A stretch of DNA of 33,999 nucleotides, taken from the NCBI GenBank assembly GCA_000995415.1, contig LCEX01000031.1:1-33999 (forward strand), written 5' to 3'. Positions within the stretch are counted from its first letter, which is position 1. Every line of letters begins with the position of its first letter. The position numbers and the translations under genes are program-made. Positions 723 through 33,009 of this stretch are shown one piece after another. Origin of the DNA: Candidatus Gottesmanbacteria bacterium GW2011_GWC1_43_10. GTDB lineage: Bacteria > Patescibacteriota > Microgenomatia > UBA10105. The notes beneath the pieces are model-generated. The model ran no database searches, had not been told where the DNA came from, and was given only the letters and a program-made list of their open reading frames with translations.

Positions 723-770
723 TATACTTGTATCTCAAAGAAATACTTGACATGAGTTACGCACCTTGTC

Positions 771-812
771 ATTATCCGGCTTGCCTGCTCGCCTTTGGAG
801 GGACCGGATAAT
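771..812. repeat. Stem-loop (9-bp stem attatccgg/ccggataat)
   Basis: Perfect inverted arms 771-779 and 804-812 downstream of the protease. Confidence 0.5.
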
Positions 813-833
813 CTATACAAATAAAACTTATGG

Positions 834-856
834 ATTCCCGCTTTCGCGGGAATGAC
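834..856 (+). repeat. REP-like hairpin attcccgc-tttc-gcgggaat-gac (copy 1)
   Basis: 8-bp perfect stem, 4-nt loop, trailing gac; same design at 23260, 27659 (inverted), 27975. Confidence 0.85.
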
Positions 857-4304: not shown

Positions 4305-6265
4305 TTTACAGTCACACTTTTGGCTAAATTTCTGGGTTTATCCGGATCCAGGCCGCGGTAGATGGTGATGTAATAAGCCAAAGCCTGTGCGGTCACGACA
4401 TTGGGAATGATCGTTGCCTCGCGGGCGTCAGTAACGGGCAAATAATAATCAAAAATCTCATGAGGCTTATGGGAAATGCCGATTATAAATCCGCCGCGGG
4501 CTTTCATTTCCATAGCTCCAGCCAAATTGGCACCATAAGTTTCATCATTTGGCAAAAAAGCGATGCAAGGTACACCCTTTTCCACCAGAGCCAAAGGTCC
4601 GTGTTTGAGTTCACCTGCCGCCATGCCCTCGGCGTGGATGTAGGCAGTTTCTTTGATTTTGATCGCTGCCTCAAGACTGGCCGGATATGAAAGGCCGCGG
4701 CCGATGACATAGATGTCACGGGCGCTTTTGAGTTTATCAGCTAACTTTTGCAATCTTTTGATATTGGCTTCCGAAAGAACTTGTTTAGTGGATGCGGCGG
4801 CCTGCAAAATCACTTTTTTGCCTTCTCCAATTTTACCGGCCAGAGCATAAGCCAAAAGAGTGAGATGGCTAAGTTTGGCAGTTAACGCTTTGGTTGAAGC
4901 CACACTTTTCTCGGGTCCGGCCCCAACTAGCATTTTATAATCAGCTTCGCGGTAAAGAGTTGAACCCATGACATTAACAAGCGCAAAAATTTTGGCCCCT
5001 CGGGCCCGGGCTTTTTTGATTGACTCAAGCGTATCCATGGTTTCTCCGGATTGGGATAGGGCCATCACCAAGCTTTTACTGGTCAAAAAATCCAAATGGT
5101 AGCCAAATTCGCTGCCTATAGCCCAATTGACATGCCGCTTGGCAATTTTGGAAAACAAGTAACTACCAGCGATGCAGACATAAGAAGCGCTGCCGCAACC
5201 GACCATATAAGTGCCAAATGATTTTTTGATAGTTTGGGCGAGTTTTTCGACGTGAGTGCTAGTGGTTTGGGCGATGTCGGCGATGATTTTTGGTTGTTCA
5301 TGGATCTCTTTAAGCATGAAATAGGGATATTTTCCTAAATCCACCTGTGCCACAGACCAATTAAGTTTTTGGGGTTTAAAAGTCACCGGTTTGTTTGTGC
5401 GGACGTTGACGATTTTTACATTTTTATTAGAAACAATTGCCATTTCATCATCTTCCATAAAATGGACATTTTTGGTGTAGGGTAAAAGGGCGGCAGCATC
5501 GCTAGCTAAGAAGTTTTCATGATCACCAAAACCAATAACGAGCGGAGAACCATTGCGTACAGCCACAAATTCTCGGGTTTGATGGTTTATGGCAATGATA
5601 GCATTTAAGCCCTGCATTTGGTTAAAGGCTGCCCGCACTGCTTGGGGGAAATCTAACTTATTATGATTCACATTTAACCCCTCCTCACCTCCCCTTAAAT
5701 TAAGGGGAGGAAGGGTGGGGTTATTGAGAGGGGAATTACTTCTCCACTTTTTAAGAGGAGGTAAGGTGGAGTTAGATCCACAAAAATACTCTTCAATCAT
5801 ATGTGCGATTACTTCGGTATCTGTTTCGGAAATAAACTTGTGATTCTTTTTTGTGAGTGCTTTTTTGATCTCATCATAGTTTTCGAAAATACCGTTGTGG
5901 ACAATGGCGATTGATTTGGTGCAATCCAGATGCGGGTGGGCGTTGATGTCAGTCACTCCGCCGTGGGTGGCCCAACGGGTGTGGCCAAGAGCGAAACTGC
6001 TCGGGGGGAGGTCGTAAACGGTTGAGCTGCCTATTTTCCCGGCCTTTTTTTTGACTACGATGGTTCGTAACCCCTCTTGACCTCCCCTGATCCTAAGGGG
6101 AGGAATTTCCCCTCTTAAGATAAGAGGGGATGAAGGGGAGTTATGAAGTGGTACTTCTGCCACGCCCCAGCTATCGTATCCCCGATATTCCAGAGATTTG
6201 AGTCCATCAAACACGATCTGAGCGCCGTTTGATTTAGGGCCAACGTAGCCAAAAATTCCACACAT
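4301..6265 (-). CDS. glmS: Glutamine-fructose-6-phosphate aminotransferase (isomerizing) with two in-frame palindromic-element insertions
   Basis: MCGIFGYVG N-terminus, LGHTRWATHG, two SIS domains, C-terminal NLAKSVTVK. Confidence 0.95.
   Translation of the reverse strand: MCGIFGYVGPKSNGAQIVFDGLKSLEYRGYDSWGVAEVPLHNSPSSPLILRGEIPPLRIRGGQEGLRTIVVKKKAGKIGSSTVYDLPPSSFALGHTRWATHGGVTDINAHPHLDCTKSIAIVHNGIFENYDEIKKALTKKNHKFISETDTEVIAHMIEEYFCGSNSTLPPLKKWRSNSPLNNPTLPPLNLRGGEEGLNVNHNKLDFPQAVRAAFNQMQGLNAIIAINHQTREFVAVRNGSPLVIGFGDHENFLASDAAALLPYTKNVHFMEDDEMAIVSNKNVKIVNVRTNKPVTFKPQKLNWSVAQVDLGKYPYFMLKEIHEQPKIIADIAQTTSTHVEKLAQTIKKSFGTYMVGCGSASYVCIAGSYLFSKIAKRHVNWAIGSEFGYHLDFLTSKSLVMALSQSGETMDTLESIKKARARGAKIFALVNVMGSTLYREADYKMLVGAGPEKSVASTKALTAKLSHLTLLAYALAGKIGEGKKVILQAAASTKQVLSEANIKRLQKLADKLKSARDIYVIGRGLSYPASLEAAIKIKETAYIHAEGMAAGELKHGPLALVEKGVPCIAFLPNDETYGANLAGAMEMKARGGFIIGISHKPHEIFDYYLPVTDAREATIIPNVVTAQALAYYITIYRGLDPDKPRNLAKSVTVK
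5676..5772. repeat. Tandem pair of palindromic repeats inserted in frame in glmS
   Basis: aacccctcctcacctccccttaaattaaggggagg... plus a second, degraded copy; encodes NPTLPPLNLRGGEEGLN. Confidence 0.85.
6068..6142. repeat. Second palindromic repeat insertion in glmS
   Basis: aacccctcttgacctcccctgatcctaaggggagg + cccctcttaagataagagggg; encodes SPLILRGEIPPLRIRGGQEGL. Confidence 0.85.
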
Positions 6266-8746: not shown

Positions 8747-8901
8747 ATTACGAAATGAAAATCTAAGTTTTGGATTATAGATTCCCTCTCTTGGTAAGAG
8801 AGGGTTAGGGTGAGTTAGTTACTTAAACAACTCCTCCTGACCTCCTCTTCTGAAGAGGAGGAAACTATAATCCGGAAGTTAACTTCATTTCGTAACTTAT
8901 T
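8745..8901. repeat. Composite nested inverted repeat (outer ttacgaaatgaa/ttcatttcgtaa arms enclosing GAGGGG-type hairpins)
   Basis: Inverted arms near 8749 and 8888; inner ccctctc...gagaggg and cctcctcttctgaagaggagg. Confidence 0.7.
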
Positions 8902-22844: not shown

Positions 22845-23830
22845 ATGAAAAAAATTACTATATCGGCTCCGGGCAAGCTCATGCTTTTGGGAGAGCATGC
22901 GGTTATTTATAATCGGCCATGTTTGGTTACCGCAGTTGATCAGCGAATGAAGGCAACTGTGGAAGTCACTGACGATTCGATATTTAGTTTAGAAGCGCCG
23001 GATGTGAATGTCACTGGTTATTCAAAACCCATGAAGGAATTGGGTAAGGGTGAGATGCCAAAAGGTGCTCAATTTGTGGAAAATGCAGTGCGAAATTTTT
23101 CAGAAAAATATCATCTCACAGGTGGATTGAAAGTAACAACGCATTCAGAGTTTTCCTCTCAATTTGGATTCGGTTCATCATCTGCTTCAACAGTGTGTGT
23201 CGTTAAGGCGTTGCGGGAAATGTATTCTTCGAACGAAGTGAGAAGTAATATTAAAGTAGATTCCCGCCTGCGCGGGAATGACGAAAAGAAAGAATTGTTT
23301 GATATTGCCTACAAAACTGTTTTGGATGTGCAAGGCAAAGGTTCTGGATTTGATGTAGCTGCCGGTATTTATGGCGGTTGTTTATATTTTGTTACTGGTG
23401 GATGCCATTAATAGTAGGTTATACGGGTATTAAAGCAGATACGATTACGCTTGTAAATCAAATATCGGTAAAGAAAAAACAATATCCGGAAAAAATGGAA
23501 AAATTATTTAATGCTATTGTCCAACTAGTTGAACAGGCAAAAGTCGCACTACAAACAAATGATTATGAACGACTTGGAAAACTGATGGACTTTAATCAAG
23601 AATACTTGCGTGACTTAGGTGTTTCCTCTGAAAGACTGGAAAACTTAATTGACGCTTCTAAAAAATCAGGAGCATATGGGGCGAAGTTATCCGGAGCTGG
23701 AGTGGGAGATTGCATGATTGCTCTTGCTCCTCCCGACAAAACTCAAGCTGTCAAACAAGCAATTTCCGAAGCAGGGGGACAAGTGATAGAAATTGAAACA
23801 AATGTGGAGGGAGTTAGGGTAGAGGACTAA
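22845..23830 (+). pseudogene. Second GHMP kinase (mevalonate/phosphomevalonate kinase-like) split by a -1 frame break near 23396-23404
   Basis: ORF 22845-23411 (APGKLMLLGEHAVIYNRP, GFGSSSASTV, GKGSGFDVAAGIYGG) continues in another frame as MPLIVGYTGIKADT...LSGAGVGDCMIAL (to 23830). Confidence 0.8.
23260..23282 (+). repeat. REP-like hairpin attcccgc-ctgc-gcgggaat-gac (copy 2), inside kinase ORF
   Basis: Encodes DSRLRGND in frame. Confidence 0.9.
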
Positions 23831-27658: not shown

Positions 27659-27681
27659 GTCATCCTCGCGCAGGCGAGGAT
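27659..27681 (-). repeat. REP-like hairpin gtc-atcctcgc-gcag-gcgaggat (copy 3, inverted orientation)
   Basis: 8-bp perfect stem, 4-nt loop, leading gtc. Confidence 0.9.
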
Positions 27682-27686
27682 CTCTC

Positions 27687-27971
27687 ATGAAATACTTTGT
27701 GTATATTTTGATGAGTTTTTCCGGTGTTTTATACATAGGTGTAACCAACAACTTGATTCGTAGAGTATACGAACACAAAGAAAATTTAATAGAAGGATTT
27801 ACCAAGAAATATAGAATTAAAAGCTTAGTTTATTACGAAGAATTTAGTGATATAAAGGATGCGTTAACACGCGAAAAACAGTTAAAACATTGGAACCGAG
27901 AATGGAAACTAAACTTAATAAAAGAATTTAATCCGACACTCACGGATTTATATAAAACAATTACTAATTAA
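27687..27971 (+). CDS. GIY-YIG family endonuclease
   Basis: MKYFVYILMSFSGVLYIGVTNNLIRRVYEHKENLIEGFTKKYRIKSLVYYEEF; REKQLKHWNREWKLNLI. Confidence 0.92.
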   Translation: MKYFVYILMSFSGVLYIGVTNNLIRRVYEHKENLIEGFTKKYRIKSLVYYEEFSDIKDALTREKQLKHWNREWKLNLIKEFNPTLTDLYKTITN

Positions 27972-27974
27972 TAG

Positions 27975-27997
27975 ATTCTCGCATTCGCGAGAATGAC
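27975..27997 (+). repeat. REP-like hairpin attctcgc-attc-gcgagaat-gac (copy 4)
   Basis: 8-bp perfect stem, 4-nt loop, trailing gac. Confidence 0.9.
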
Positions 27998-32007: not shown

Positions 32008-33009
32008 ATGAATATCGTTGTTACCGGTTCTTTGGGCTTTGACTACATCATGGATTTTCCAGGGCGATTTGCAGACCGGATCATGCCGGATAAGATCCAC
32101 AAAATCTCTCTTTCATTTCTGGTTGACAAATTAACCAAAAACTTCGGGGGAACTGCTGGAAACATTGCCTACAATTTAAAATTATTGGATACAAACCCTT
32201 TGATTTTAGCTGCAGCCGGAAACGATTTTGCACCATACAAAATCCATCTTCATAAATTTAAAATTGAAACCAAACTCATTAAGGAAGTGACTAAAGTCGC
32301 GACCGGTTCTTATTTTGTGGTCACTGATCAAGAAGATAACCAAATCGGCGCTTTTTATACCGGAGCCGTCAATTTTGATGAAAAATTATCGCTAACTAAG
32401 ATCAAAGACAAAGCGTCTTTTGTGGTAATTGCTCCAACTACACCTCCGGCCATGAAAAAGTTTGTGTTGGAATGTCAAAAATTGAAATTGCCATATCTTT
32501 ATGATCCGGCGTTTCAAATTGGCAATTTTTCAAAAGCAGAATTGATTGCCGGAATTTCCCAGGCAACTATTTTGATTGGTAATGATTATGAAATAGATTT
32601 AATTTTGAAAAAAACCGGACTTAGCAAAAAACAATTATTAAAACAAGTACCGATTATTATTACAACGTTAGGAAGTAAAGGGTCGTTGATTGAATATAAC
32701 CCCACCCCTGCCTCGCCGGCAGGCAGGCTTCCTCCCCTTAAATTAAGGGGAGGTGAGGAGGGGTTATTAACTATTCAACCAGCCAAGCCCAAAAATACAT
32801 CAGATCCGACAGGTGCCGGAGATGCTTACCGCGCCGGATTTTTAGCCGGATACTTACGTGGATTTGACCTTAAGACTAGCGGACAAATGGGGAGTGTGGC
32901 CGCGGTTTACACTGTCGAAAAATACGGCACCCAAACGCACAACTATTCAATAGGCGAGTTTTCAAAAAGATATCAGGAAAACTTTGGAATAAAACTTGAG
33001 TGGCCATAA
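32008..33009 (+). CDS. PfkB-family carbohydrate/nucleoside kinase with in-frame palindromic insertion
   Basis: GSLGFDYIMDFPGRF; FGGTAGNIAYNLKLL; DPTGAGDAYRAGFLAGYL. Confidence 0.9.
   Translation: MNIVVTGSLGFDYIMDFPGRFADRIMPDKIHKISLSFLVDKLTKNFGGTAGNIAYNLKLLDTNPLILAAAGNDFAPYKIHLHKFKIETKLIKEVTKVATGSYFVVTDQEDNQIGAFYTGAVNFDEKLSLTKIKDKASFVVIAPTTPPAMKKFVLECQKLKLPYLYDPAFQIGNFSKAELIAGISQATILIGNDYEIDLILKKTGLSKKQLLKQVPIIITTLGSKGSLIEYNPTPASPAGRLPPLKLRGGEEGLLTIQPAKPKNTSDPTGAGDAYRAGFLAGYLRGFDLKTSGQMGSVAAVYTVEKYGTQTHNYSIGEFSKRYQENFGIKLEWP
32698..32767. repeat. Nested palindromic element inside PfkB kinase ORF
   Basis: aaccccacccctgcctcgccggcaggcaggcttcctccccttaaattaaggggaggtgaggaggggtta. Confidence 0.9.

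Follow-up and report, generated by a model that had tools for sequence, protein, structure and literature searches.

A short gene for a GIY-YIG nuclease in the window (the whole 33,999-nucleotide stretch of DNA analyzed here, from Candidatus Gottesmanbacteria bacterium GW2011_GWC1_43_10) resides between two inverted hairpins of the CGTC REP type. Related genes and hairpins are associated across many bacterial phyla, form exact-ended units, and have co-evolved, and we consider it likely that the gene of the window, with the hairpins on either side of it, represents a single small, autonomous, REPtron-like mobile element whose nuclease recognizes the CGTC hairpins that flank it. The repeats are known; as far as we have searched, both the gene partnered with them and the resulting element are new.

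Members of the CGTC REP super-family carry a CGTC or TGTC tag, a stem of 8-9 bp starting with AT, a loop of 4-5 nt, and a short unpaired tail, and they occur predominantly as head-to-head dimers, with some units located inside genes (Di Nocera, De Gregorio, and Rocco, 2013; PMC3733652). The hairpins flanking the window gene have the same anatomy, including an 8-bp stem with AT first, a 4-nt loop, and a TGTC tag, and the tail of this hairpin type is C followed by T or C, not strictly CCA. When the sequence was re-read, the ORF, which carries a Pfam GIY-YIG match, and both hairpins were found exactly where the original prediction had placed them, with 5 nt separating hairpin and ORF on the 5′ side and 3 nt on the 3′ side. 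Folding z-scores are -5.1 and -4.2 for the 5′ and 3′ hairpins, respectively, and exact matches to the GTC-hairpin pattern occur in the window at this element only, with 0 expected from 100 shuffles. The outer bounds of the element were set by analogy with duplicated copies in another genome (G138) and with copies in Bradyrhizobium.

Table 1. Coordinates of the proposed element and of other hairpins in the window, with the hairpin families of the related genes in the same genome.
Feature	Position	Strand	Details
Whole element: REP, GIY-YIG gene, inverted REP	27659..27997	+	339 bp; ends GTC / GAC
5′ CGTC-type REP	27659..27681	+	GTC + ATCCTCGC-GCAG-GCGAGGAT; tag GTC 27659-27661 (with 27658: TGTC); stem 27662-27669 / 27674-27681; loop 27670-27673
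GIY-YIG nuclease gene	27687..27971	+	ATG..TAA; 94 aa; Pfam PF01541, E=3e-14; hairpin family ATCCTCGC/ATTCTCGC type
3′ CGTC-type REP, inverted	27975..27997	-	ATTCTCGC-ATTC-GCGAGAAT + GAC; tag GAC 27995-27997
Gene-less inverted REP pair (REPIN/MITE-like)	768..856	.	hairpins 768-812 (TTATCCGG type) and 834-856 (TTCCCGC type)
Solo REP	23260..23282	-	in frame inside GHMP-kinase ORF (22845-23411)
Second hairpin family, copies	5688-5710, 6108-6130, 8784-8804, 8841-8861, 32731-32753		
Contig 3 gene			hairpin family CCCGA..GAGGG
Contig 5 gene			hairpin family TTCTGG..CCAGAA
Contig 10 gene			hairpin family CTGAACTTGTTTCAG

The further hairpins noted in the original prediction, at 834 and inside the kinase gene, are indeed of the same kind, and the former is paired with a second hairpin in inverted orientation. 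The latter CGTC hairpin encodes a peptide (..DSRLRGND..) and resembles the RPE insertions of Rickettsia; in this region (22845-23830) the GHMP-kinase ORF stops early and overlaps an ORF in another frame, indicating that either the gene is broken or the assembly has slipped. The window also contains a second, distinct hairpin family (CCTCCCCTTAAATTAAGGGGAGG and similar) with a 9-10 bp stem and a 3-nt loop, of which two copies are identical though 27 kb apart.

The protein encoded by the window gene matches only GIY-YIG in Pfam and not Y1_Tnp, and thus it is not a RAYT as judged by the presence of an HUH/Y1 domain. It belongs to a subfamily with the motif YIGVTxxLxRRVYEHK..GFTKKY..REKQLK, in which residues Y6, Y16, G18, R26, H30, E63, and N82 are 97-100% conserved, and a search of NCBIfam returned no model for this subfamily. 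An AF2 model of the window protein has a mean pLDDT of 94.6, and the nearest solved folds identified by Foldseek are those of UPF0213 and SLX1 (structures 1zg2, 1ywl, and SLX1), the latter being a nuclease that acts on branched DNA. We judge the product to be a one-domain GIY-YIG nuclease that appears active, with its catalytic residues intact.

The source genome (1.42 Mb in 56 contigs) encodes 10 small GIY-YIG proteins and one UvrC-like protein, and four of the small ones form a single subfamily in the protein alignment. On reading the flanks, we found that all four subfamily genes lie between inward-facing hairpins, with the tag outside and the stem adjoining the gene, and that the remaining six small GIY-YIG genes have no such hairpins. 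Each of the four genes has a different hairpin family. In a 311 kb sample of the genome, from which the dispersal and pair counts were taken, all four families are dispersed (16, 10, 6, and 4 copies), and reversed-sequence controls for the same four yield 0 copies. Hairpins led by GTC form 17 inward pairs and 0 outward pairs in this sample. When all 64 lead trinucleotides were compared, unrelated leads gave at most four inward pairs, and the 15 obtained with TCA are the same elements shifted by one base. A covariance model finds 77 hairpins in the genome at E<=0.05, and nearly all of the displayed hairpins have an inverted partner, which makes them head-to-head dimers. Most dispersed copies are such inverted pairs lacking a gene, and they resemble REPINs or MITEs. 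Covariation within the hairpin alignment was left out of the evidence because the hairpins had been picked for perfect stems. Chance, or a background of generic intergenic hairpins, was rejected as the source of this pattern on the basis of the shuffles, the reversed patterns, the 64 lead trinucleotides, and the control ORFs described below.

Beyond this genome, we collected 80 subfamily loci from the genomes of 85,488 species; these are best matches and not a random sample, and they come from Patescibacteria lineages, Pseudomonadota, Bacteroidota, Cyanobacteriota, Chloroflexota, Nitrospirota, and other phyla. Under a strict test that demands a perfect 6-bp arm after GTC no more than 160 bp away, inward hairpins are present at both ends of 31 of the 80 genes, compared to 0 of 318 control ORFs (the other ORFs of the same loci), and at one end or more of 60 genes, compared to 11% of the controls. 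By the same test, about a quarter of these subfamily copies have no inward hairpin; in 10 of the 80 loci (12.5%) the hairpins at both ends face outward, and five of the 80 genes contain premature stops. In a second set of 36 subfamily loci, nine have hairpins at both ends and 21 have any. Among 27 loci of other GIY-YIG families, the corresponding numbers are zero and two, and the idea that just any GIY-YIG gene would have this arrangement was rejected. The original prediction had identified, as findings that would speak against it, other GIY-YIG copies without hairpins and hairpins equally frequent beside random genes. Flanking is instead a feature of the subfamily, and neither the other families nor the control ORFs show it at both ends. 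We also considered whether the gene is phage or plasmid cargo, and rejected this idea on finding few matches, those to phages being distant.

Subfamily genes are also present in records of Neisseria, Sinorhizobium meliloti, Azospirillum lipoferum, and Novosphingobium. The flanks were read at two of these, revealing outward-facing hairpins in Neisseria and no clear inward pair in S. meliloti. The gene in Neisseria gonorrhoeae sits among dRS3-like hairpins and that on S. meliloti pSymB among multi-copy, RIME-like repeats, and these two loci connect older named repeat families with the subfamily gene.

Hairpin and protein have diverged together. In all 17 loci where the hairpins of both ends could be typed, the two types are identical (7.1 expected, with a maximum of 15 in 2000 shuffles). 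On the protein tree, 11 changes of hairpin type are observed, compared to 24.5 when types are shuffled (minimum 19) and 22.6 when they are shuffled within phyla (minimum 16). Host phylogeny alone therefore does not account for hairpin type, given that every within-phylum shuffle exceeds the observed count. When only Pseudomonadota are considered, significance is lost, with 51 of 500 shuffles reaching the observed value. Because the types were defined after the sequences had been viewed and the tree derives from 98 columns, the exact counts of type changes are soft, but the contrast is still large.

Several observations support mobility of gene and hairpins as a unit. In G138, two near-identical copies (L264 and L265) reside approximately 10 kb apart on opposite strands, and their likeness begins at GTCATTCCGG and ends at CCGGAATGAC(G), its limits coinciding exactly with GTC and GAC. 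With a Bradyrhizobium element as the DNA query, more than 20 copies were recovered from congeners, with bounds near query positions 640-644 and 1040-1043, which are the hairpin tags. We also compared occupancy among five syntenic 80-kb stretches of Bradyrhizobium, where gene-less pairs of 78-79 bp (gap 0-2) and 86 bp (gap 3) are present in some species and absent from others. The gene-bearing unit is likewise missing from some species, and approximately 56 bp beside it differ as well. The empty sites sought by the original prediction are found for gene-less pairs and, imperfectly, for the gene-bearing unit. Searches of plasmid DNA contributed no clean unoccupied site. With this one imperfection, the data reveal what is expected of a transposable element, namely an exact-ended unit, different locations, and unoccupied sites. 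No target-site duplication is visible at the Bradyrhizobium sites or at L264 and L265, and to our knowledge none is expected for RAYT/IS200-type elements either. The few unoccupied sites compared share no conserved target sequence.

One intergenic spot in Bradyrhizobium is, depending on the species, occupied by the GIY-YIG element, empty, or filled with other sequence, and further copies often lie within a few kb of it, making it a possible local hot spot. Elsewhere, a single intergenic position (near 4486 of locus L249 in G103) and its syntenic counterparts in G133 and G021 (L244 and L257) carry different hairpin families (CCGGGTTCG.. versus GATTGCTTCGCTGCGCTCGCAATGAC), as if one had been replaced by the other.

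Gene and hairpins also co-occur among genomes. In 240 genomes of the class, with the gene called at E<=1e-18 and hairpins called when at least two matched the model, 63 have both, 42 have hairpins only, 13 have the gene only, and 122 have neither (OR 14.1, p=3e-17). These p-values are optimistic, since each genome is counted as an independent observation and some of the hairpins used to train the model lie near GIY loci. Mean hairpin number is at least 14.0 per genome with the gene and at least 2.3 without it (counts up to ~31), and 11 GIY-positive genomes have 0 model-detected hairpins. The link between RAYTs and REPs rested on genes located between two inverted REPs, on co-evolution of protein and REP, and on correlation of gene presence with REP abundance (Nunvar 2010, PMC2817692). 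All three features are found here in statistical form, and they support the analogy with RAYTs and REPs that the original prediction had drawn.

We infer that the nuclease mobilizes the element, by cleavage and transposition chemistry of the following kind. The protein, probably as a dimer, would bind two hairpins, either single-stranded during replication or extruded as cruciforms, and would nick at the GTC tag. GIY-YIG enzymes hydrolyze DNA without a covalent enzyme-DNA intermediate, and none is known to act as a transposase. Because this chemistry is hydrolytic, joining would be left to host replication, ligation, or recombination, with the element perhaps copied into the cut site in a homing-like manner. 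Such a route would differ from the covalent strand transfer of RAYTs. Hairpin pairs that lack a gene would be moved in trans, as miniature derivatives.

The most serious alternative is that the CGTC hairpins are moved by a different enzyme (a RAYT or some other Y1/HUH transposase), or by replication slippage and recombination among the repeats, and that the GIY-YIG gene is cargo, captured between a pair of hairpins and benefiting from their movement. Genes matching Y1_Tnp exist in the genome of the window and in 165 of the 240 genomes, and they correlate with the hairpins, albeit more weakly than the GIY-YIG gene does (OR 4.3 overall and 3.1 in GIY-negative genomes). Moreover, a strong subfamily match is absent from 42 of the 105 hairpin-bearing genomes. 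Among the 14 of these gene-negative genomes that are hairpin-rich, remnants were found only in G269, where a flanked copy has decayed, and in G020, where a contig ends in a fragment; the others showed other GIY-YIG types only, or none in the case of G012. However, GTC hairpins flank none of the four Y1 genes in the genome of the window, which led us to reject a RAYT as the mobilizer, and the 2013 survey is in agreement (PMC3733652). Captured cargo would also leave unexplained the matching of hairpin type to protein clade, the flanking of the same subfamily in many phyla, and the persistence of the GIY-YIG effect in Y1-negative genomes (OR 14.5, p=5e-4). Overall, we regard capture as unlikely. 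RAYT-sized Y1 transposase genes on contigs 43, 9, and 10 of this genome have different termini of their own, and the copy on contig 43 is bracketed by GGACGGTCCTTTT inverted repeats.

Somewhat less probable still is a caretaker role, wherein the nuclease processes CGTC hairpins at cruciforms or stalled forks, as an SLX1-like enzyme and not as a mobilizer, and the gene is retained and co-evolves with the repeats. The resemblance to SLX1 and the co-occurrence and co-variation of gene and repeats are compatible with this role, but it does not require that the gene be flanked inwardly by its own substrate, that diverging copies each have their own hairpin family, or that gene and hairpins be duplicated exactly as a unit. 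We also asked whether the hairpins might simply be ordinary terminators or mRNA-stabilizing stem-loops around a short monocistronic gene. They lie only a few nt from the start and stop codons and could act in RNA, and REPs often reside downstream of genes. Yet no run of T residues follows them, an Rfam search with the hairpins matched no family, and neither the GTC tag, nor the fact that both hairpins face inward, nor their absence around 318 other ORFs is explained, and so a role in expression seems very improbable. An autonomous element mobilized by its own nuclease accounts best for these features.

CGTC REPs have been reported in Neisseria, Rickettsia, Wolbachia, rhizobia, and other bacteria, and the enzyme that spreads them has been in question since 2013. 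The neisserial dRS3 and rickettsial RPE-4 and RPE-6 repeats are members, Bradyrhizobium and S. meliloti are among the listed hosts, and no dedicated transposase was found in that survey, which does not mention GIY-YIG proteins (PMC3733652). With less assurance than for the window element itself, we lean toward the view that there is a phylum-spanning class of minimal transposable elements in which a single-domain GIY-YIG nuclease moves both the hairpin-ended units and the pairs without a gene, and that this nuclease is the missing enzyme of the CGTC REP super-family (dRS3, RPE-4/6, and others). A dedicated GIY-YIG partner, if true, would answer this question and would constitute a second, non-homologous solution to REP mobilization. 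The original prediction had called the system possibly undescribed; this does not hold for the repeats, whereas for the nuclease partner we found no link between GIY-YIG proteins and REPs in open-access PMC text, including papers citing PMC3733652.

Relative to the CGTC REPs described earlier, we propose a gene partner and widen the range to Patescibacteria and many other, uncultured phyla. The UPF0213 or YhbQ-like small GIY-YIG proteins and SLX1 share the fold and size of the window protein, but hairpins of this kind do not border the other small GIY-YIG genes, either here or in relatives. GIY-YIG homing endonucleases such as I-TevI and T4 Seg share the catalytic domain and probable mobility, but the window gene lies outside introns, encodes a single domain, and is flanked by dispersed hairpins. 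The closest parallel is with RAYT/TnpA-REP REPtrons and REPINs, built on GTAG REPs (Nunvar 2010; Bertels and Rainey 2011), where a short gene likewise lies between inverted REPs, the dispersed REPs form inverted pairs, the REP evolves together with the protein, and gene presence tracks REP number. In contrast to those systems, a GIY-YIG nuclease here takes the place of the HUH/Y1 transposase, GTC replaces GTAG as the tag, and a genome carries several copies of the gene with a separate hairpin family for each.
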